A stretch of 64,000 bases of DNA, taken from the NCBI GenBank assembly GCA_035772405.1, contig JAYKKM010000474.1, positions 560,001-624,000 on the forward strand, given 5' to 3'. Each line of letters begins with the position of its first letter. Position 1 is the first letter of the stretch. The notes beneath the pieces are model-generated. The model saw only the letters and a list, made by a program, of their open reading frames with translations. It had not been told where the DNA came from and ran no database searches. This DNA comes from Chrysogorgia sp. JL179-B06. Taxonomy: Eukaryota; Cnidaria; Anthozoa; Scleralcyonacea; Chrysogorgiidae. Shown piece by piece: positions 3,570 through 28,840 of this stretch. The position numbers were made by a program, and so were the translations under genes.

Positions 3570-4472
3570 ATGAGTAAAAACAAAAAAACTAAATTTTCTG
3601 CTGACTTTATTGAAAAAGCTTCAAGATTATTAAAAGGAGAGACATTAACTGATGAGGATTATTCTAATTATAGATTACATAGTAGTAGTAAAAAAATATA
3701 TAGACGTTTGAAATATGCTGTTAATAAAAATAATGAACAATGGGAAATTGATTTAGCTGAAAATAAAGATTTAGCCCGATATAATAATCAATATCGTTAT
3801 TGGCTGGTGTGTATTGATATTTTTTCAAGATTTTGTTGGGTAAAATTAATAAAAAAGAAAACGTCTAATAATGTTAAAAATAAATTTGAAAGTATTCTTA
3901 TTGAAGAAGGAATAGCGCCTCTTAAAATTCAAAGTGATGAAGGAACAGAATTTCAAGATATACGTACGAAATTAAGTAAAAAGTATAATTTTGAAGTATT
4001 TCATACGTATAATAGAGAAATAAAAGCATCCCATGTGGAACGTGTAATTGGAACTTTAAAAACAATGGTTCGTCGTGTTTTAACAATGACTGGAGAATTT
4101 GACTATATTCAATATTTACCCCTTATTGTTAATCGTTATAATAATTCCCCACATAAAGCATTAGCTGGTGCAACACCTTTTGAAATTTATCGCGAAGAAA
4201 AAAAAGGAAAAATACGTAAAATAAAAAATAAAATAGTACGTGATCATTTAAATTATCCTATTCCCACTCAAGATCTGATACAAGAAGGTACTCGTGTACG
4301 TATTGTGAGAGTAAAAAATAATATTTTTGAAAAAAGTAGTCTTCGACGATGGACTAATGAGATATTTTTTATTAAAAAAGTATTTATCACCGATCCCGTT
4401 ACATATCAATTAGAAGACGAACAACGTGAAGAAATTAAAGGAATTTTTTATCGTGCTGAATTACAAGTTTAA
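3570..4472 (+). CDS. Retroviral-type (rve) integrase of Polinton kind
   Basis: The 300-residue ORF is intact. It carries a DDE core with D61 in WEIDLAEN, D123 in IQSDEGTEF and E157 in KASHVERVIGTLK. The motif YWLVCIDIFSRFCW (about 77-90) and a C-terminal SH3-like tail ending in FYRAELQV are typical of Maverick/Polinton integrases. It would join element ends to host DNA with short staggered cuts. The N-terminal zinc-binding region is reduced, and no chromodomain is visible. It follows the acidic ORF by two bases. It is one of the few core genes without a frameshift. Confidence 0.93.
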   Translation: MSKNKKTKFSADFIEKASRLLKGETLTDEDYSNYRLHSSSKKIYRRLKYAVNKNNEQWEIDLAENKDLARYNNQYRYWLVCIDIFSRFCWVKLIKKKTSNNVKNKFESILIEEGIAPLKIQSDEGTEFQDIRTKLSKKYNFEVFHTYNREIKASHVERVIGTLKTMVRRVLTMTGEFDYIQYLPLIVNRYNNSPHKALAGATPFEIYREEKKGKIRKIKNKIVRDHLNYPIPTQDLIQEGTRVRIVRVKNNIFEKSSLRRWTNEIFFIKKVFITDPVTYQLEDEQREEIKGIFYRAELQV

Positions 4473-7701: not shown

Positions 7702-9125
7702 ATGACTCGTAAAAAATATATAAAACAAAGAAAAAACAAAAGAGGAATAAGAAAGCGGAGCATTGGTACAAAATTAACGTTTAAAAAAAAAAAAATGAGT
7801 AAAAAAATTGAAGATGTGGAAAAAAATGAAATATTATTTAGTGAACCTTTACAATTTTTTGCTTCATCACCCTATAATGATACGTTTACAGAATGTCGTG
7901 AAACTGAAATTATTGCGACGCCTGTCGATAATCAATCGTCAGTATACACGTTTACAAGACATGGGAACGCTGTTGGATTAATGAAAACAAGTGATGCTAA
8001 AATAATGGCTAGAGTATCAATTAAAAATGCTGCTGGAGTTATAGCACCTGCAGCATCGGGGTTTTCGATGGTTACATTACCCCTTCGTACAATGTGGAAA
8101 ACAAAAGAATTAAAAATAAATGAAAATTTAATTACCCCATCAGATAATTTTGCACATTTTGCATCATGGATAGAATTTATAATGCGTCAAACACCGTCGG
8201 GATATAAAGATTCTAAAGAGCTTAGTTTAGCATATTTAGATACAGCCGAACATATGAGCGATATTGCGGGTTTTCATAATGGAACTGCTGTCGTAAATGT
8301 AGGTGGGAGACAAAAAGCACAGGCATTTCAAAATCAATCACAGTATTTGATAGATGAGATTGATTGTTCATTATTTAGCGAAGGTGGTGCTGAAATATAT
8401 ATTCCTACAGCGTATAAAGTTGAATTACGTTTAACGCGGGCGTTAAATACAATTGTAATGATGGGGCCAATCATGCGAATATGCCCATTGCTGATACTAT
8501 AATTACCCTACACGATTTTAAAATAAAAATTCCTGTATTTAAACCAAAAAAACAATTATCAAATGCTATTAATATAGGGATGATGACCCATAATAAAGAA
8601 ACATTATATTATACAACCAATTATCGTTGTATTAATGAATCATTAGCTGCAGGACGAAATTCACATCAAGTAATCGATGTGTTTAATGGTAGCGTTCCTA
8701 CACGTTTATATATTGTATTTTCTCCATTAGCAAATTGGAACGGATCATATACTCATAATATTTTTGAATTTAACTGGCCTAATTATGATAATGTTGAAGT
8801 TTCGGTAAATAACGCTGTTTCCGGGAAAATAGAAAATGAAGCTGAAGCTTACTCAAAATTACGCTCGGTATTAAATCGTAACTATTCAGAAATGCCCATG
8901 ACTTATAATGACTTTAAAAACGGGTATTGTATATTAGCATTTGATTTAACAGATAATAGAGACTCTCATCTTGCAGTATTACCCATAAGACCGTCGGGAA
9001 ATATTAATGTGGATTTTCATTTTTCTCAAAATACAGTGGCAGGGGCGTTAATATTTGTTGGTGAATTTCGAAATGAAATTAGTGTAGGATTAAATACCCC
9101 TGAAAGATTATTACACAGCATTTAA
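7702..9125 (+). pseudogene. Major capsid-like protein (F54H12.2 family), frameshifted
   Basis: Two long ORFs (7702-8502 and 8463-9125 in the next frame) together give a protein of about 470 residues. The first starts at ATG 7702, or more plausibly ATG 7795 (MSKKIEDVEKNEILF). The layout matches the Polinton/adintovirus F54H12.2-like family usually taken as the double jelly-roll major capsid protein: an N-terminal sheet region, a middle LYTTNYR-type segment and a late FDLTDNRDSHLAVLPIRPSG followed by a terminal VGEF. The frame change lies at about 8466-8490, not in a long homopolymer. The basic leader 7702-7794 may belong to a separate small gene. It would form the virion shell. Confidence 0.75.
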
Positions 9126-10521: not shown

Positions 10522-11109
10522 ATTTACATTGTTTTTTAACCCAATTTTTATTTACGAACGAGATTAATAAAATTTCAAAAATAAATAAGTTTTTAAATAA
10601 ATATTATTTGGGTACATTTCCTGCAAATATTTTTCCTAAAAAAATTTTTTATCCCTCGTGTTGGATTTGGAATACGGATGAAGCAGATCAAAACGGTCAA
10701 CATTGGGTTGCTATATGGGTGGATAAAGAAAAACATGAATTTTTTTGATAGTTTTGCTAAAGATGTATCGTTTTATAAGCGTGAATATTGGTATGATTAT
10801 AGTGTAAAAAAAGGACTAAAATTTCAATATATTCAAAGTAAACAATTACAATCCAAAAATACTGCCGTGTGTGGAAATTGGAGTTTATTATATTTATACA
10901 ATCAATGTCGTAATGAAATCGAAAATAATAATAAACAAAAAATATTTAAAAATGAACGTATTAAAATAAAAAATGATATTAAATTAAAAAAAAAAATAGA
11001 AACAATTTTAGGTAGTGTACTCGTGGGAATATATAATAAAAAATGTAAAAAAAATTGTAAGAGTAATAACAATCAGTCATGTTGTAGTTTTAATAATGCC
11101 AATTTTTAA
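10500..11109 (+). pseudogene. Adenain-type (C48) cysteine protease, frameshifted
   Basis: ATG 10500 opens a protein with the catalytic His in GQHWVAIW (residue 68). After a frame change at a T7 run (10740-10746) the second part has FDSFAKD (catalytic Asp/Asn position) and the nucleophile Cys in NTAVCGNWSLLYLY. A QSKQLQ oxyanion-type Gln precedes it. Order and spacing match adenovirus protease-like/Ulp1 enzymes that mature Polinton and adintovirus virions. The C-terminal extension is Lys-rich with a Cys-containing tail. A single base at the homopolymer separates the halves, so a sequencing indel is possible. Confidence 0.8.
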
Positions 11110-11493: not shown

Positions 11494-12171
11494 TTACAAA
11501 TCATAGATTATCGTTGATTCATGTGGAAATACATTGGTTCTAATTCTACAATTTTCATACCCTTTTCTACAATTATCAAATACCAAATAACCATAGGGCT
11601 TCTCATTAATTTCACTTAATACTTTATTAAATCTATTTCTATTAATTTTTTTATTATCACATATCGTATACATATTATTATAATCACTTAAATTTTTAAA
11701 CATAACATAATATTGACTATTGACACGTAAATTTCGCAATTTACCATTACCATATGTTAAATTTTGGCATGTAAAAATAACACTAATATTACGATGATGG
11801 ACATCTTGAGTTGCAATATTATCTATTCTTTCAAGATTTTCTTTTGATGATGTTGCAACTAACATGAGATCATCTAATATTATTAAAGTATTTTCACGGG
11901 TATTCGTTTATATATCGGTAATGCGGGGAATACCCTTTTGACAATCGATAAATTCAACACTAATATCTGTTTTTTCCGCAAGAACTTTTTCCATTTCAGC
12001 GTACAGAGGTTGATAAATTGAATATAAATAAACAATTTTAACAATTGCTGGTGTAATCATAATGTTAATATTTTTCAATAATTGTAATATCCAATATGTT
12101 TTCCCGCTTTGACTAGGACCACATAACGTTAACATAAAAGGGTGTTGAAATGGTAATGAAACATTGTTCAT
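11494..12171 (-). pseudogene. FtsK/HerA-type genome packaging ATPase, frameshifted
   Basis: From ATG 12171 the product has FQHPFMLTLCGPSQSGKT, a Walker A motif at residues about 17-24 (GPSQSGKT). After a frame change near 11895-11908 the second part opens with a Walker B site (LIILDDLM) at about 11870-11890. It then continues with VIFTCQNL and YGYLVFDN to the end at 11494. These are the hallmarks of the A32-like packaging ATPase shared by Polintons, adintoviruses and virophages. It would pump DNA into capsids. The gene lies just downstream of the polymerase on the same strand. Confidence 0.8.
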
Positions 12172-12230: not shown

Positions 12231-15200
12231 TTAAATGTCAATAAAAATATGATTAAGTTTATCTTTACATATTTTATTGTGATATTTAATTTCGATGATC
12301 TGATCTTGATTTTTAACACATTGTGTCAAGGATAAAAAATTCAATTTTTCTTTTATTGTTTCATTTTTTAAAGTAAAACCTTTCACATGAATACATTCCT
12401 GATTTAAATTAGTTATATACGCGTAACATTTTGGACCCGTTGAACAAAAATTTGTTATCCATTCATTTTCATTTAATTCATTCGTTAAATCTCCTAAATA
12501 ATTTCCCGTTTTAACATCAGTATAATTATTTTCATCAGATATATAAATAACAGAATCTGTATCAAAATATAAAACGCAATCGTCTAATGTATTGAGTAAC
12601 TCGTATAATTTCAAACGTGCATATGCAGTGACAAAACATGCAATGATTACATTTCCCGTTTTTAGAGGTGTTGTTGCATCATCAATTTTTTCATATGTAC
12701 AACGTAATAATGTTTCGTTTATAAATTCCATCGATGTTAATTTTTTACTTTTATCATTGGCAATATTTAATAATTCTTCATAATCGTTTAAAAAACACAC
12801 TTGTGTATTATTTTGTTTTGGGCAAATTTTCCCCATAACGAATTTAAAAATGTTTTTGCAATAGTTCTTAATCCGGGATTTTTCTCTATTTTGTCTTTAT
12901 CTAAAAAAAACATTTTCATTTTTTAAATAATCATTACAATACTGTTTAGTTTTATCATCATTTTTACTTCCATCTGCGTCCAAACAATCCGTAGGAATTC
13001 CTGAAGATTCTTGTTTTATTTTTAAAAATTGATTTACGTATTGTGAAAAAATTTTTTCTTTGCGTTCAAAATGATATATTTCGTAAAGAGCTATTATTTT
13101 ATATCCCTTATCTATAGCAACATTAATCTCAACACTAGTCCAAGTACCCGTTAAGTATCGATCGCTTTCATTATGTTCACATTTATTACATTTATTCACA
13201 GCACATTTATAACATAATGGAAATAATAATTTCCCATCTATTCTAACAGGTAAAACAGGAAAATAAATATTTCGAGGAGGTGCAATACAAGATTTTACTA
13301 AACCAAATATGTCCTTGATTTTTATTTTATTACAATCTTCCCCCAGTAAAATAGTAGGATGACCACAGGAAAATCATAATTTTTTTGTACATAAGGGTAT
13401 AGCGATGTAAAATCTACATAACTTATTCGTTCGTTGGGTTTTGTTTCTTTAAATAAACATACGGGGGAAGTTCGTCCCCCATATAATGCGTCACGTGGTG
13501 TTAAAGGAGTAAACGGATAAAATTTTCTTTTCTTTTCAATTAATTGTTTCCGTGTATATATTTTTTCTTCTAAATAATCACATTCCCACATCTCGATTAA
13601 TTTGTAACCGGCATTTTTTATTGTCCAAGAAAAACGTTGCGTATTTGCATATAAATTACTAAATTTTTCGTTTGTAAGAACGTTTAATGCATAGGGGTCA
13701 AAACATTTGGGACATCCGTGATAAAAACAACCATGAAATTGATATATCGTATCAATATAAAAACCGTCGACAAAACGTCCTAGAATTTTTTCTCCTCATT
13801 TTGTGAACAGATATATTCTAAATTTCCTCCTATTTCTCGATTAATTTCATCTAACCAATCAATAGCAATTAAACTCTGTTTTACACACCCCCTATAGCCC
13901 GAAGCAGGAATAATATCTACACAATTTTTTTTTTAAAAATTAAGTCTATACACTTTCAAAGCTAAACTAGCAATTGTAATACAATTCTTTGCATAAAAGG
14001 GTGTAATATGACCTATGGTCATATGACCTATGGTGCCTATCATTGTAGAAAATTTAACACATCCCTTTCTTAAAATATCTACATCACTACAACAATGATA
14101 ATAAATCTCTTTACGAAATATATATTTCTCTTTTTTTTTTTCTAAATACCATTTTTCAAATTCCTTAAGTGTTGCTGTATTCATATGTTTCGTATCAAAA
14201 AATTTCCGATCTACAATTTCACCCTCATAAGTTAAATCGTAAAATTCATAAGGATGAAATCCCTTACATTCCCCTTGAAGATCCATTGCTTTTGGAATAT
14301 CGGCTAATTTCATACTAAAAAACAAATAACTATCGAGGATTCTAATATTTTGTTCTTTAATTATTAAACTCATTATTTTAGTACAGTTCATTATAGTATT
14401 CGGTATTATCTGTTTTATTTCTAAAAGATATTTTAAAATAAAAATAGTATCAAATCTACCCCCGTTATGAGCTATCCAAACGGAATTTTTTTGTTCAAAC
14501 ATAAATTCACATAAAGTTTCAATAATATTGTTATCAAAAATAAATTGTCTATTCCCACAACAACTAACTTTTTCAATACAATTAGCGATAATTTCTTGAT
14601 CCTTTTTTTCAAAAATTTTTGTTTTTTTAAATTCACTATGTTGACATTTTTTACATACCTTTTGGACGATACAATAAAACGGTACGAGCAATTTAGTTTC
14701 GGTTACTTTTGTTTCAAAATCAAAAAAAAATAAAGTGCGTTCACTTTCTTTCCCCTTGTTATATTCAAGTGAAAGGGGTTTCACATAACAAAAATGAGGT
14801 TGTTTCATGTATTTATCACAATGAAAACAAAATCGTTTGCTACAATCATGTTTAACTGTTTTATTAGAAAAAATGAAAAAGAATCGCGGACAAATTTTGT
14901 TACAGGTTTTACAAAAAAAATAATATTGACAAGGTGTTAAACGATCATAATTATTTTGAGAGGGTTTAAAAATTTTATTTGTTAAATGATTTGTAAAACA
15001 ATTTTCATCATAAAAAATTATATCACAACTGTTACAAATAAGTTTATTATTTTTATCTTTACACTTATTCGGATATTTATAACATCGTAAACAAGTTAAA
15101 TTATTTGTAGTACATAGGTGATTATCGATATATTCATGGCGTGTAAAATAACTCATACATTTAACACAAAAAGAACTGGTGTTAAGTTTAGAAAATTCCT

Positions 15201-16412: not shown

Positions 16413-16625
16413 ATGAGTGAAATTGTTTATATTGAAATTTATTTACAATCGTCTAATTTACCTTATATCGGATATGAAATTCAAGATAATGATCCTTCAA
16501 TATTATTTACGCCGTATCTTTTAAGGGAATGTTTACTAAATTTTACAGAAGATAAAGAAAAGATAATACCCATATCATCAAAGATTTTAAAACAAAGAAT
16601 AACAGAATTAAAAAAAGTAGTATAA
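16413..16625 (+). CDS. Small hypothetical protein
   Basis: ATG 16413 opens a 70-residue product (start MSEIVYIEIYLQ, end ITELKKVV) with no frame break. It begins only about 40 bp from the divergent start at 16371, so the two share a promoter region. Another short open frame (about 16650-16755) follows but lacks an ATG. No domain was recognised. Confidence 0.45.
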   Translation: MSEIVYIEIYLQSSNLPYIGYEIQDNDPSILFTPYLLRECLLNFTEDKEKIIPISSKILKQRITELKKVV

Positions 16626-16758: not shown

Positions 16759-17310
16759 ATGGTAAGAGTTAAGTTACCTCGAAAAAAAAGACGCAATGAT
16801 AAATCTCAAAGTATACGTCACGTTCTTCAATGTAGAAGTAAAACCTTAAAAAAAATAAGATGTCGTAAACGAACAGCAAAAACAAAAAAATGTTGGATTC
16901 ATTTAGCAAAACAAAATAACTTACGTATCAAGAAATCAACGATCCCCAATGCGGGTGAAGGATTATTTGCTTGGAAAAAACCTTTTAAACCCGATCGTAA
17001 TATTTGTTATTACACGGGTCAAAAAACAACACAGGTCAAATTGGATCGTAAATATGGTAAAAACACTAATGCTGTATATAGTATTTGTAACGATGCAAAC
17101 ACTTGTATCGATGCTTATTTGACAACTCACGCCGCAGCACGTTATGCGAATAATGGGAAAACCGGTTCTATATATAAAAATAATTCCGATTTTGTTTACG
17201 ACCCCAATAATAAAAAAATGTATTTAGAAAGTATAAAACATATAAAAGCCCATGAAGAAATTTTTGCAGACTATGGTGATAACTATTGGCAGAGAAAACA
17301 ACCTTCATAA
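16759..17310 (+). CDS. SET-domain protein lysine methyltransferase
   Basis: The 183-residue ORF is intact from ATG 16759. An N-terminal basic region carries a Cys pattern C-x9-C-x9-C-W-x-H (residues 25-48), like the small zinc modules of large DNA viruses. The SET domain spans about 55-177: GEGLFAWKK (cofactor loop), a YTG strand at about 85-87, AARYANN (position of the usual R(F/Y)(I/V)NH motif) and the C-terminal DYGDNYW with the catalytic Tyr. It would transfer methyl from S-adenosylmethionine to lysine. It has no post-SET zinc cluster and is compact like viral SET enzymes. Histone H3 is a plausible substrate, but the sequence does not show this. It neighbours a basic GG-repeat protein. 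Confidence 0.88.
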   Translation: MVRVKLPRKKRRNDKSQSIRHVLQCRSKTLKKIRCRKRTAKTKKCWIHLAKQNNLRIKKSTIPNAGEGLFAWKKPFKPDRNICYYTGQKTTQVKLDRKYGKNTNAVYSICNDANTCIDAYLTTHAAARYANNGKTGSIYKNNSDFVYDPNNKKMYLESIKHIKAHEEIFADYGDNYWQRKQPS

Positions 17311-19316: not shown

Positions 19317-20102
19317 TTAAAAATTAAATTCCTTATCATACATAGCTAGTACCGATCGTTCATTATCCCCATCTTCTAATTTACGAAACAAACATGCAGC
19401 AAATAAAAGACATTCAAACAAACTACAATGATACAATAAACATGTGGGTTCACTAGTATGATACCAACAATTTCTTGGTTTAAGATTATAAAACGAAAGT
19501 AAATAATCGTACTTCTCAATTCCAAAATATTCAAGATTAACACAATGTAAAATAGTTTTTTCTTGAAGTGTTTTAACTAACGACGATTCTTTGTCACCAC
19601 CTTTATACCCGATAATAGCATTCGGGGGAAAAACATTACGAAATAAATAACTTAATCTATTTATAAGTTCACTTTGACTAAAATAATCTCTTGATTTTTT
19701 TTCAGATAAATAGTCTAAACCATGACATCGATATTGATAGTAGACAGTAGACCGTTCCCTTCGAGTTAGTTCTTTGTAGGGTTTTAACTTCCCATCATAA
19801 CAATGATAAATAAAATACTTGTTCGTTTGAAGTTCGAGAAGAGTTACTTCACGATAACTGGGTCTCTCTCCCTTAAACTGGTAACATTCACAATCCATTA
19901 TATGTGTGATACGCGATAAAAATAATTTCTGTCGTTCTTGGGATATTTCTTCTTTACATTTGTTTAATGCACAATTATATTTACCCGCATACAACTCTTC
20001 GATAGTCGTCCCTTCAGATTCTTCCTGGGGCTTTGTCTCTAACGGGATGTAGTCATCTACTTCTTTAATTTCGCTGTTCACGGTGTCTAATCTTTTTGCC
20101 AT
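19317..20102 (-). CDS. Inverted-repeat gene, intact right copy
   Basis: The ORF starts at ATG 20102 (MAKRLDTVNSEIKE) and has about 261 residues. An earlier in-frame TTG exists, but ATG 20102 matches the left copy's ATG 157. An acidic N-terminal region precedes YNCALNKCKEEISQERQKLF. The core has IIGYKGGDKESSLVKTL, and a hydrophobic Cys-rich stretch (CLLYHCSLFECLLFAACLF) lies near the end. A diverged paralogue lies at 20790-21785. No known family was recognised. A gene kept in both arms is likely an early or host-interaction gene, but that is inference. Confidence 0.7.
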   Translation of the reverse strand: MAKRLDTVNSEIKEVDDYIPLETKPQEESEGTTIEELYAGKYNCALNKCKEEISQERQKLFLSRITHIMDCECYQFKGERPSYREVTLLELQTNKYFIYHCYDGKLKPYKELTRRERSTVYYQYRCHGLDYLSEKKSRDYFSQSELINRLSYLFRNVFPPNAIIGYKGGDKESSLVKTLQEKTILHCVNLEYFGIEKYDYLLSFYNLKPRNCWYHTSEPTCLLYHCSLFECLLFAACLFRKLEDGDNERSVLAMYDKEFNF

Positions 20103-20252
20103 CTCTCTCTCTCCTACACTCAGACTGATATTAATTATTTTCGACATCGGGTTTTATAATAGCATCCTGCGTTACTATGCGTTACTGGGGATAGATTAGT
20201 TTGACCAATCAGAGTTCGTTGATTAAAGCTTTCATGTCATACAGATGATTTG
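19320..20252. repeat. Right arm of gene-bearing inverted repeat
   Basis: Reverse complement of 1-1524 minus the MITE. It ends at 20252 only because the window's left edge limits the comparison; the bases beyond (gatactcatgtac) may also be repeated outside the window. Confidence 0.85.
20151..20212 (-). promoter_or_regulatory. TATA and CCAAT elements of right inverted-repeat gene
   Basis: On the minus strand, attataaaac (about 20151-20160) lies about 50 bp before ATG 20102, and CTGATTGG (about 20204-20211) lies about 50 bp further upstream. This mirrors the left arm. Confidence 0.5.
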
Positions 20253-20556
20253 TGATACTCATGTACAATGAATGTGTGTTGTGGGAATTAGAGACGCGAC
20301 GCCCTACTTAGCGAATTTCTTCTAAACAAATACTCGCGGATTAGTTGCCGCAATGCTATGTTGTGGGATTAACGAATGTTGTGGGATTAACGACACGAAT
20401 CCCTAATTTTGTTCTAAAACACACACACGTCACATCAGTTGATATATTATATAGTCGTGGGATTAGTTTATAGATACAATAATACTTTTTTCAAATTTTG
20501 ATCAAAATCGTGTTAAATTCTACATGTGAAATATATATTATAAGAATGGGAAAATA
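20253..20556. promoter_or_regulatory. Non-coding segment with repeated TTGTGGGATTA motifs
   Basis: No gene. The motif (G)TTGTGGGA(A/T)TTA recurs near 20278, 20370 and 20385, and GTGGGATTAG occurs near 20458. The stretch 20436-20467 is an imperfect inverted copy of 24831-24861. This could be a regulatory or end-associated region. Confidence 0.4.
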
Positions 20557-22361: not shown

Positions 22362-23381
22362 TCAATATAGAGACTCTAACTCACGATATTTATCGCGTTG
22401 TGTACAAATAATATCTTGATTATAATTCGAATAGATTGTCATTCGTTTTTCTTCATGATGTTCATCGCCTTTTTTTTCACGTTTCATATAAATTAAAGAC
22501 CGTTTGAAGCATCTTTTCTTCAATGGTGGATCGTTCGAAACTTCTCGATCGTCGTCATCTTCCTCTTCTTCTTCGTCCTCTTCTTCACACCGTGGAAATA
22601 ATGGTTGGGGTGATGTAACCATAGGTGGTGGCGGAATAGGCGATAATGTTGGGAGAAGAGCGTTTGCTGCTTCATCCACAATTTGTATTAATTGGGGAAC
22701 GGGTATCATTTCATCACACATTCGTATTAAATTCGAAGGTGAAGGAATAGGGATTTGTCCAAAGAAATCAATGGGCATTTCGTGTATGTAATTATCTAAT
22801 TCACCTTCTTGCCCCGGTATTTCATATACCTCTGGCGGCGAAATCGTTTGCGGTGGAATAGGAGATAAATTATACCTTGCTTGCGGTGTTTGAAGAGGTC
22901 TATTATACTGTTCTTGCGATAATAGAGGTGGTGGGGGGTTTACTTGCTGGGGTAGAGACGGTAGCTTTGCTTGCCGTGGCGACGTGTTATACTTCGCTTG
23001 CAGGAGTAGAGGGTGTATGTAACCGGACTGTTCTTGAGATGGTGAATTTACTTGCGGGGGTAGAGAGGGTAGCTTTGCTTGCCGTGGCGACGTCTTCGCT
23101 TGCAGAGGGTATATGTGACTGGACGGTGTTATCGGTACAGCAAAATTTAATGGCGACTGTGCAATGTCTTTAGTTGTTCGATGGTTGACGTTCTTTTTTC
23201 TTGTGATTTCTTGACTGTATGCTTGTTCATCATCTGAAATATTCCGTCCCATTTGACGATATTCTTGTTGCTGTTGACGGCGTTGTTTTAACATTTTGGG
23301 AATATCTTTTCCCCAACTTTCAACCCGTGCAATGGTTTTTCCGCTTTCCAAATTTTTATGAGTCTGTTTCACACGGGCCAT
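22362..23381 (-). CDS. Proline-rich protein with histone H3 tail-like N terminus
   Basis: The ORF is intact from ATG 23381, 339 residues. The first residues, MARVKQTHKNLESGKTIARV, match the histone H3 tail in register: Ala1, Arg2, Lys4, Gln5, Thr6, Gly13 and Lys14 (counting after Met) are shared without gaps. Residues about 35-60 are basic and Gln-rich (KQRRQQQQEYRQ). Residues about 80-190 contain two to three copies of a SPRQAKLPSLPxQVNxP unit. An acidic run (EEEDEEEEEDDDD) and a basic patch (LKKRCFKR, possible nuclear signal) follow near 280-310. The body is probably disordered. A nuclear, chromatin-directed role is inferred. Confidence 0.7.
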   Translation of the reverse strand: MARVKQTHKNLESGKTIARVESWGKDIPKMLKQRRQQQQEYRQMGRNISDDEQAYSQEITRKKNVNHRTTKDIAQSPLNFAVPITPSSHIYPLQAKTSPRQAKLPSLPPQVNSPSQEQSGYIHPLLLQAKYNTSPRQAKLPSLPQQVNPPPPLLSQEQYNRPLQTPQARYNLSPIPPQTISPPEVYEIPGQEGELDNYIHEMPIDFFGQIPIPSPSNLIRMCDEMIPVPQLIQIVDEAANALLPTLSPIPPPPMVTSPQPLFPRCEEEDEEEEEDDDDREVSNDPPLKKRCFKRSLIYMKREKKGDEHHEEKRMTIYSNYNQDIICTQRDKYRELESLY

Positions 23382-23414
23382 GCTGAGATTGTGACTAAAA
23401 ATTTAGAAACAAAC

Positions 23415-23500
23415 GCTTATAAAAACACGGTAAAAAAAATGGGGTAACCTGATTGGTTGAACTTAATTCCCTAATAAAAAATCGGGGTATTCTCATTGGT
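23415..23500 (-). promoter_or_regulatory. TATA and CCAAT elements upstream of H3-mimic gene
   Basis: On the minus strand a TATA-like tttttataagcg (23415-23426) lies about 35-45 bp before ATG 23381. Plus-strand gattggtt motifs (about 23451 and 23495) supply inverted CCAAT boxes. The block lies between this gene and the divergent gene at 23682, so it may serve both. Confidence 0.45.
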
Positions 23501-23630: not shown

Positions 23631-23945
23631 AGATATAAAAACACATGTTAAAAGTCATATTTATTTTAGAACACTTTCAAAATGATTGCAGGTACTAAAG
23701 AAAATCCTCTGTTGGTAATAATTACCGATTTAGCAAAGTATTTTTCACACATTGAATATCAAGTGGTTGAATGTCGTAAAATGGATATGTTACCAAACAA
23801 TGAAATTCCCGAAATAATACTATATAAGATATTATTTTTATGGGATACGAAATATATATATACCTACTCATCGGACGATTTTACACATTTGATCGGTCAG
23901 TTTGTGAATATAGCAATCGATGAACCTCCACCCTATCAACCATGA
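23631..23945 (+). CDS. Small ORF A of a tandem trio, PPPY tail
   Basis: TATA-like agatataaaa (23631-23640) lies about 42 bp before ATG 23682. The product has 87 residues and ends EPPPYQP, containing a PPxY motif of the kind that binds WW domains of NEDD4-type ligases and acts as a late-budding motif in some viruses. The segment FTHLIGQFVNIAID resembles a segment shared with the next two ORFs. The stop overlaps the next ATG (ATGA). No known family. Confidence 0.5.
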
Positions 23946-25298: not shown

Positions 25299-25720
25299 AT
25301 GGGTGACAACATGCAACCAAGAAACTCAGACGCCTCCAATAACGCAAAACCGCGCAACACAAACTCCATCGAGGAAAAGAAAGAAGAAAATGTAAGATAG
25401 CGCTAAAATGTTTTTTACTGTCTGTATACAATCGCCATGTATTTATTATGTTTTTTATTTTCTCTTAGAAAGAAACCATCCCTCCACCCCGGGGATCCTG
25501 CTGGTGCATTCCGCGTCCAAAACAGACTCGAAGTATGACTTCGACGACTACGAAGCTCCGGAAGACGACAACGATGACCCCCGCGTGTGGGGTATGTAGA
25601 CTCAAGGGGTGAGCAATTCATGCACTTTGAAAGTACAAAAACCATGGTAAAAGTGCAGAAACATTAAACTGCTTTTTATTTTTAATTTGTAGGGGTATTA
25701 TATCCCACAAGGGACCCCTT
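25299..25720 (+). CDS. Probable spliced small gene, three exons
   Basis: Exon 1 (25299-25391) reads MGDNMQPRNSDASNNAK and onward to a donor (aat|gtaaga). The acceptor tctcttag at 25461-25468 starts exon 2. Its best coding frame is acidic (YDFDDYEAPEDDNDDPRVWG) and ends at a gtatgt donor near 25587. The acceptor aatttgtag near 25691 joins to an exon 3 that closes with YYIPQGTP and a stop near 25720. Exon 1 enters exon 2 in a different phase, so one base is missing or extra, or another first exon is used. No family was recognised. Confidence 0.4.
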
Positions 25721-26671: not shown

Positions 26672-26972
26672 ATTAAGTGCTGTCTCGGATGCTATATGGG
26701 GTTGAAAGCATTGATGGACCAGGAACAGGATGTTTAGTCGTAGAATTTCGTGTTCCGAATAATTGATAATCAGTGGGGAAAGTTTGCCCAGAAACCAAAC
26801 ATGTCTAGAGTAAAAACTTTTTCACTTTAGACATGTTTGGTTTCTGGGCAAACTTTCCGCACTGATTATCAGTTGTTTTAAACACTAAATTCTACGACTT
26901 AAACATCCTGTTCCTGGTTCATCAATGCTTTCAACCCTGTATAGCAAATGACGTCAGTACTTGCTTAACACT
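26672..26972. mobile_element. Palindromic MITE
   Basis: A nearly perfect inverted repeat centred near 26820: gctatatggggttgaaagca on the left matches the complement of 26925-26945, and the inner arms (gaaagtttgcccagaaacca) are almost identical. Outer parts match less well. No ORF. Confidence 0.75.
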
Positions 26973-27321: not shown

Positions 27322-27855
27322 CTACTGCGAAATTAGCCCTTTTTCGTTGGGGGGGGGAGGGGTGTACGGTAAAATTGACCTGCTAAAATCTTTGTTGCCC
27401 TGCAGTGACCGCATTTTTTAGGGGGGGTGCGGGGGTGCTCCCCGGAAAATTTTGAAATCTAGAAGCTCGGAAAGACAATTTGCAGCAATTTGAGCAAACG
27501 TTTTTCATCTAATTCTACAAAGCGAGCATATTTCAAGTGAATCCAAGCTTACCTGCAGCTGCCTCTTACCAAGTGCCGCCATTTTTTGCGCCCAGTACTG
27601 ACAGAAGGGTCTGGGAACCAATCTAACACTCGCGTGGCCAACTCGTTGCCAGAGCCTGCAAGGGTTTAGGGGTTGGCTAACACTTCAGGCAACACCCGTT
27701 TGTAAAATCTCGTGTAGATGAAGCCCGTAGGTAGATTACCGTAAGTAGCTTCTCTGCTAGCCTCCGACTGAACTGCCCTGCGGCCTGCAAGATCTCTGAT
27801 TGTCCATTTTTAGTATTTTGGGGGTGTCACACCCCCCTCGAGTTTCGCCCCTGTA
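27322..27855. other. Non-coding stretch
   Basis: Contains a G-rich patch (ggggggggagggg near 27350) and no recognisable gene. It may be transposon remains. Confidence 0.3.
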
Positions 27856-28480
27856 TGTGGTGCTTTCTTCTTTATATGCTGTGCTTTCTTTATATGCGGT
27901 GCTTTCTTCTTTATATGCAGTGCTTTCCTCTTTATATACTGTTCTTTCTTCTTTATATGCTGTGCTTTCTTCTTTATATACTGTTCTTTCTTCTTTATAT
28001 GCTGTGCTTTCTTCTTTATATGCTGTGCTTTCTTCTTTATATGCTGTTCTTTCTTCTTTATATGCGGTGCTTTCTTCTTTATATACTGTTCTTTCTTCTT
28101 TATATACTGTTCTTTCTTTTTTATATGCTGTGCTTTCTTTATATGCTGTTCTTTCTTCTTTATATGCTGTTCTTTCTTCTTTATATGCTGTTCTTTCTTC
28201 TTTATATACTGTGCTTTCTTCTTTATATACTGTTCTTTCTTCTTTTATACTGTTCTTTCTTCTTTATATGCAGTGCTTTCTTCTTTATATACTGTGCTTT
28301 CTTCTTTATATGCGGTGCTTTCTTCTTTATATACTGTGCTTTCTTCTTTATATACTGTGCTTTCTTCTTTATATGTTGTGCTTTCTTCTTTATATACTGT
28401 GCTTTCTTTATATGCGGTGCTTTCTTCTTTATATGCAGTGATTTCTTCTTTATTATACTGTGCTTTCTTCTTTATATGCT
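27856..28480. repeat. About 21-bp tandem array
   Basis: About 30 copies of a unit like ctttcttctttatatgctgtg, with variants (ctgtt, atactg, atgcgg). All frames are open because 21 is divisible by three, which creates long ORFs on both strands. These are repeat artefacts, not genes. Confidence 0.9.
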
Positions 28481-28486
28481 GAAATA

Positions 28487-28840
28487 TTTTTGTCACCAGG
28501 GAGGGGAGTGTGTGGCAAAAACATTTTGTCACCAGGGAGGGGAGGGTGTGGGTGGATTTTTTTGCCACCAAGAAGGGGAGGTTGGGGGGGAAATTTGTGT
28601 GACCAGGGAGGGGAGTTTGGGGGGATTTTTTGTCACGGGGAGGGGAGAGTGAGTGGGAAATTTTGTCACCAGGGAGGTGCCGGATTTTTTGTTACCAGGG
28701 AGGGGATGGCGGGAGATTTTTTGTCACCAGGATGAGGAGGGTGTGGAAAAAAATTTGTTATCAGGAGGGGTGGTTGGTGGAGAATATTTTTGTAACCAGG
28801 GAGCGGTGGGTGGGGAAAAAATTTTGTCACCAGGGTTCCC
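28487..28840. repeat. G-rich minisatellite
   Basis: Degenerate units of about 30-40 bp built on ttttgtcaccagggagggga(g). Around ten copies follow directly on the 21-bp array. Confidence 0.85.

Follow-up and report, generated by a model that had tools for sequence, protein, structure and literature searches.

An open reading frame (ORF) in the genome of the anthozoan Chrysogorgia sp. JL179-B06 encodes a 339-residue protein whose N terminus (MARVKQTHKNLESGK; in a longer reading, MARVKQTHKNLESGKT) resembles the tail of histone H3, and we hypothesize that this N terminus works as a mimic of the region around H3 lysine 4 (H3K4), possibly methylated by a SET-domain protein encoded nearby. The ORF lies at positions 22362–23381, on the minus strand, of the stretch of 64,000 nucleotides that we analyzed (the window: assembly GCA_035772405.1, contig JAYKKM010000474.1, positions 560,001–624,000), which also carries what appears to be a decayed Polinton-type mobile element. 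We hold the mimicry hypothesis tentatively, at somewhat short of an even chance; it and a reading of the likeness as coincidence are close to evenly balanced, and the rival readings overlap. The stronger lead, and a new one, is an H3-like MARTK tail carried by part of the SET family to which the nearby protein belongs.

The likeness resides in the codons of residues 2–16 (ARVKQTHKNLESGKT; 23334–23378, minus strand), which are identical to H3 residues 1–15, in register and without gaps, at seven positions (1, 2, 4, 5, 6, 13, and 14), five of them within the first six. The sequence-only reading, which had proposed that this ORF starts like H3, is borne out by the translation and the in-register comparison, and its claim that the N terminus imitates the H3 tail is partly supported; the likeness takes in the H3K4 region and Gly13-Lys14, and the H3K9 site (ARKS) is not copied. 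The same N terminus matches the tails of H4, H2A, H2B, and CENP-A at 3, 0, 1, and 1 positions, respectively. Of 28 ORFs from the element region that we compared, the remaining 27 match H3 at 0–4 positions, with the SET protein as runner-up (4/15). Three composition models put the per-ORF probability of 7 or more matches in 15 at 2e-6 to 8.5e-6, and shuffling residues 2–41 of the protein itself puts it at 6.7e-5, suggesting a composition-based chance of about 1e-5 per ORF.

The reading frame and its start codon are well supported. The stop-free run at the ORF extends for 346 codons, whereas the longest run seen when the region was resampled 2000 times (order 1) was 255, and the frame is therefore not a chance opening. 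An in-frame TAA (23403–23405, minus strand) precedes the start codon by 24 nt, a TATA-like box (TATAAG, 23416–23421, minus strand) stands at −40 from the ATG, the 100 nt upstream are free of any competing ATG, and the ATG itself has A at −3 and G at +4. Initiation at the next in-frame Met (residue 30, MLKQRR; 23277–23294, minus strand) would abolish the H3 likeness; the features just listed support the first ATG over the downstream start that the sequence-only reading had named as a possible refutation. Beyond the tail, the protein is rich in Pro (12.7%) and Gln (9.1%), with disorder judged by composition alone, and contains an acidic run (CEEEDEEEEEDDDDRE; residues 265–280, 22542–22589, minus strand) followed by a basic patch (PPLKKRCFKR; residues 285–294, 22500–22529, minus strand), a putative nuclear import signal. 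No histone fold was found after the tail, no Pfam or PHROG family was matched, and no histone appeared among the PDB sequence matches, in agreement with the earlier description of the body as proline-rich, acidic, equipped with a basic patch, and unlike any histone. An internal repeat on the minus strand (22939–23127; copies 22939–23031 and 23047–23127, unit TSPRQAKLPSLPxQVN) has two units that differ, over the 16 codons compared, at 3 codons, 2 of them synonymously and 1 with a replacement, which is in keeping with coding sequence, although the changes are too few to serve as proof. We also rejected a reading of the acidic Cys-Glu run as an LxCxE motif of the kind found in adintovirus oncogene-like proteins, because Pro, not Leu, stands two residues ahead of the Cys.

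The SET methyltransferase gene that the sequence-only reading had placed nearby is present at 16759–17310 (plus strand) and encodes a protein of 183 amino acids (N terminus MVRVKLPRKKRR) with a SET fold, the conserved Asn, and a catalytic-type Tyr; beyond the SET domain, its family has a basic tail and a cluster of conserved Cys and His residues. The protein starts MVRVK (codons of VRVK, residues 2–5, at 16762–16773, plus strand) and shares 4 of 15 positions with H3. We recovered 39 relatives of this SET protein, of which seven bear the name of an octocoral, Paramuricea clavata. Thirty-six of the 39 begin with Met, and among these 10 start MARTK and 1 starts MARVK (the eleven being P0003, P0004, P0006, P0009, P0010, P0027, P0031, P0034, P0036, P0037, and P0002). 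The tail of P0004 (MARTKKTPRRKQF) is identical to H3 at residues 1, 2, 3, 4, 6, and 8, at 6/15 the highest count among the SET relatives, and the nine other MARTK proteins differ from it after MARTK. Neither viral contigs, searched for relatives of the window protein, nor prokaryote genome contigs, searched with the family alignment, gave a match. As a separate observation, made by eye, the start of one relative (P0038) resembles a small ORF at 16413–16625, immediately upstream of the SET gene.

Judged by tail composition, starts of the form [AV]R[TV]K would be rarer in this family than they are observed to be. Four of 14 lineage representatives carry the motif at residues 2–5, whereas 200,000 shuffles of the tails gave 0, 1, and 2 carriers in 199,184, 814, and 2 trials, respectively; the motif class was fixed after the data had been seen, and the representatives were picked with the tree in hand, two of the carriers (P0004 and P0009) sharing one group. 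Within the ten MARTK proteins, a closely related set selected on that very start, columns 2–5 are all invariant, compared with 8 of 33 in columns 6–38. The tree itself comprises 27 of the 39 relatives and the window protein, 12 short, fused, or divergent rows (three of them MARTK) having been omitted; 20 of its 28 rows lack MAR[TV]K, including P0007 next to P0006, and the label needs 3 changes, a number compatible both with a single origin followed by losses and with several gains. A model of the window protein itself (A2) has a mean pLDDT of 66.5. In the structural ranking of the SET model, MLL1, SETD8, SETD7, and PRDM9 rank within 1 Z of one another with EZH2 and vSET just behind, and the sequence profile ranks EZH2 first. 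The model thus fits H3K4 enzymes (MLL1, SETD7, and PRDM9) but fits others equally well, and the substrate is undecidable by structural rank. Among viral SET proteins, the vSET chain of 3kma, a viral protein specific for H3K27, is a bare 105-residue SET domain, to which the window family adds the Cys/His cluster and basic tail; FirrV-1-G2 and the SET proteins of medusavirus and adomavirus are other viral examples, and our comparison covers the 3kma chain.

An initiator Met that precedes Ala is as a rule removed. The ARVKQT of the 339-residue protein would then be exposed and would compete for, or recruit, host readers of the H3 tail such as PHD fingers. In a second and less certain step, the window SET protein would methylate the Lys4-like lysine, as its MARTK-type relatives may methylate the matching lysine of their own N termini, and the methylated tail would become a ligand for readers of methylated H3K4. 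Host transcription or chromatin factors could in this way be tied to the DNA of the element or drawn away from host genes, and an H3 mimic of this kind, encoded next to a SET gene from a family in which H3-like starts recur, would be one half of a writer-and-substrate pair within a mobile element. Each of these binding and methylation steps is conjectural, extrapolated from the systems with which we compare the protein.

Influenza A (H3N2) NS1 carries a C-terminal ARSK that copies H3 1–4 and, once methylated, is bound by CHD1 although it offers no free amine (PMC10612106). The 339-residue protein would resemble it as a viral protein bearing a copy of the H3K4 region, NS1 being one that engages an H3K4-methyl reader (PMC10612106); NS1, however, the best-studied viral mimic of this region that we found, has its motif at the C terminus and depends on methyltransferases of the host, whereas the 339-residue protein has it at its very start, in a window with a SET gene of its own. 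The PHD finger of UHRF1 reads the N termini of H3 (ARTK) and PAF15 (VRTK) (PMC8034647; PMC11187062), and PAF15 and DPPA3 offer a precedent for a non-histone start of the [AV]R type read by a PHD finger; unlike the protein described here, they are host proteins with Thr at position 3, and reader binding by a Val3 tail is a prediction. Judging by the title of one cited reference, N-terminal H3 mimicry is a kind already described. G9a and GLP methylate H3-like motifs of their own, creating an HP1 site (PMC9768651), although in G9a these lie at K185 and K239, whereas in the SET relatives the copied stretch is N-terminal and corresponds to the H3K4 region, and their self-methylation is putative. 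SARS-CoV-2 ORF8 likewise owes its proposed mimicry to a short H3-like motif, ARKS, in a viral protein; that mimicry was later disputed on localization grounds, a caution on short motifs (PMC10833455). Titles and abstracts among the matches listed described no Polinton protein that mimics H3 at its N terminus and no Polinton SET protein with a tail like that of H3. Passages from two papers on adintovirus-like viruses (PMC11071296; PMC11071308) do not use the word "methyltransferase," and the former describes histone-like "Histoid" genes of adomaviruses, which are different from the 339-residue protein.

The closest competitor, to which we assign a probability barely below that of mimicry, is coincidence: MARVKQT would have arisen by accident at the start of a viral protein that is disordered and evolves fast, and the basic residues there would have an ordinary purpose or none. 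Several results weigh on this side and against mimicry. As a control, we ran degenerate DNA patterns for MARVKQT and MARTKQT on IMG/VR, matching 18 plus 115 loci; Ser replaces Arg at position 3 in 86 of these 133, leaving 14 MARVKQT loci (5 with an ORF of at least 60 amino acids or open-ended) and 33 MARTKQT loci (23 such), figures that are counts and not rates. A PHROG scan of ten of the ORFs assigned two to portal proteins, one to an internal virion protein, one to an endonuclease, and one to a family of unknown function, with five unmatched (L054, L033, L008, and L017 are the portal, internal virion, and endonuclease matches; L042 and L103 are further proteins with these starts). Those five assigned to phage families agree with H3 at 5–7 of 15 positions, and others in the viral-contig set reach 9. 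Exact MARVKQT and perfect MARTKQT starts thus occur in viral contigs, among them in portal and internal virion proteins of phages, which infect hosts devoid of H3 readers, and since these proteins share the start in the absence of chromatin, the motif alone is no evidence of function. In addition, Val replaces Thr3 of H3 in ARVKQT, a weakness where readers of the UHRF1 type are concerned; indeed, a Thr-to-Ala change in the VRT of DPPA3 reduces affinity for UHRF1 (PMC11187062).

Relatives of the 339-residue protein, which might have revealed selection on the tail, did not emerge. The whole protein gave 7402 candidates among 5.8 billion clustered proteins, none at E ≤ 1, residues 1–75 gave a single candidate in the same collection and none at E ≤ 10, viral contigs held no relative, and nothing convincing was found among PDB sequences (best E 0.57); the homologue searches rely on shared exact words, which distant relatives could escape. 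In the absence of any relative, selection on the tail is not in evidence. Moreover, many famous N termini would have been equally eye-catching, and a chance of 1e-5 per ORF is not compelling genome-wide. The ORF and the SET gene belong to one element probably but not certainly, the ORF lying beyond the paired repeat arm described below. What stands against coincidence is that the match is rare per ORF, is the best of the 28 ORFs compared, and has counterparts in the H3-like starts that recur among the SET relatives. The sequence-only reading had allowed that so short a match might arise by chance, and the phage proteins with the same seven-residue start agree with that caution; its broader claim of H3-tail mimicry gains from the 11 of 39 SET relatives that start MARTK or MARVK and loses from those same phage proteins. 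Were coincidence to prove correct, the case would be a useful warning, since portal proteins of bacterial viruses carry perfect H3 1–6 starts.

An alternative that we consider unlikely, and clearly behind the former two, is that the truly H3-like feature is the tail of the SET proteins, which would regulate the enzyme from within as a substrate or pseudosubstrate, and that the 339-residue protein is unrelated to it; this overlaps with the coincidental reading of that protein, and the probabilities do not sum to one. The recurrence of MARTK in 10 of the 39 relatives, with up to 6 of 15 matches to H3, and the self-methylation known for G9a and GLP argue for such a role, whereas MAR[TV]K is missing from 28 of the 39 (in three cases because the database entry does not start with Met), the window protein itself starts MVRVK, and residues 1–5 are unplaced in the predicted structure. 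The least probable alternative, that [AV]R[TV]K starts help the proteins to bind nucleic acid, to enter the nucleus, or to be translated efficiently (Ala2 followed by basic residues) and bind no reader, accords with the Lys/Arg-rich SET tails, with other basic starts among the relatives (MSQKRQKF, MSRRQKF, and MNRQRRAF), and with the separate basic patch of the 339-residue protein, but composition shuffles of the tails almost never yield the motif and MARTK is fixed where its neighbors vary, albeit in rows selected for MARTK.

An extension of the mimicry hypothesis, which we regard as improbable, is that Polintons of the octocoral type possess an H3K4-like signal of their own, with a SET writer bearing an ARTK or VRVK tail and the separate, disordered ARVKQT protein as its substrate and adaptor. 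If it were true, a mobile DNA virus would make its own methyl-lysine mark outside nucleosomes and recruit host H3K4 readers with it.

The mobile element itself is recognizable from three features. An integrase of retroviral type (rve, PF00665; E 2.8e-8, 34.4 bits against a cut-off of 32.6) lies at 3570–4472 on the plus strand. A family B DNA polymerase, predicted to be protein primed, is preserved in pieces and several frames at 12231–15156 on the minus strand, with PF03175 on 13322–13591 (E 3e-6) and a DNA polymerase PHROG on 12231–12836 (E 4.4e-14); the ORF at 13933–15156 in this region matches no profile. Inverted-repeat arms occupy 1–1525 (left, cut by the window edge) and 19322–20253 (right, its end set by the extent of the left arm within the window), some 17.8 kb apart and 85% and 93% identical in their pieces; because the left end of the element falls outside the window, the terminal position of the arms is one that we infer. 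Together, these features appear to mark a decayed Polinton-type (Maverick, adintovirus-like) element. Profiles for capsid, protease, and ATPase gave no informative match for the ORFs at 7702–8502, 8481–9125, and 10678–11109, and the packaging ATPase candidate at 11908–12171 matches Pox_A32 weakly, below the cut-off (E 0.0036). Searches for the integrase in viral contigs and against phages returned no relatives, nor did searches of viral contigs with a polymerase piece and the 7702–8502 ORF. In the left repeat copy, roughly 580 bp at 401–983 are extra relative to the right copy and break a gene that is intact there as the ORF at 19317–20147.

The 339-residue ORF sits 2.1 kb past 20253, the last pairable base of the right arm in the window, and its membership in the element, which the sequence-only reading had assumed, is likely but not certain, even though the virus-like element itself is in evidence. 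A CCAAT-box-like motif provides a link between the two. A copy (CTGATTGGTT) at 23449–23458 lies between the ORF and a divergent ORF at 23682, and a second (CTCATTGGTT) at 23492–23501 matches the same consensus, CTSATTGGTY. This consensus, which was defined after the sequence had been read, occurs 6 times in the 64 kb against 0.41 expected, a count reached in 0 of 100 shuffles; the sites begin at 42 and 20203 (one per repeat arm), 23449 and 23492 (upstream of the 339-residue ORF), 25181, and 27228, and amount to five independent sites, because the arm sites are a single site in duplicate. A looser form, STSATTGGNY, is found 9 times against 3.16 expected and is weaker than the tight form. The occurrence of CTSATTGGTY both near the ORF and in the arms therefore makes common membership likely, if not certain.

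Other features of the window lie farther along. At 25300–25600, a short ORF (MGDNMQPRNSDAS...) follows a CCAAT- and TATA-like stretch and runs into GTAAG, with an acidic frame resuming after TTTTCTCTTAG, perhaps a spliced gene as read by eye. Thirty tandem copies of a 21-bp unit at 27860–28481 make up most of a 265-residue ORF (27855–28652), which for that reason is probably no gene. Finally, a palindrome at 26733–26902, with 84-bp arms that are 88% complementary and 2 bp apart, resembles a small inverted-repeat transposon.
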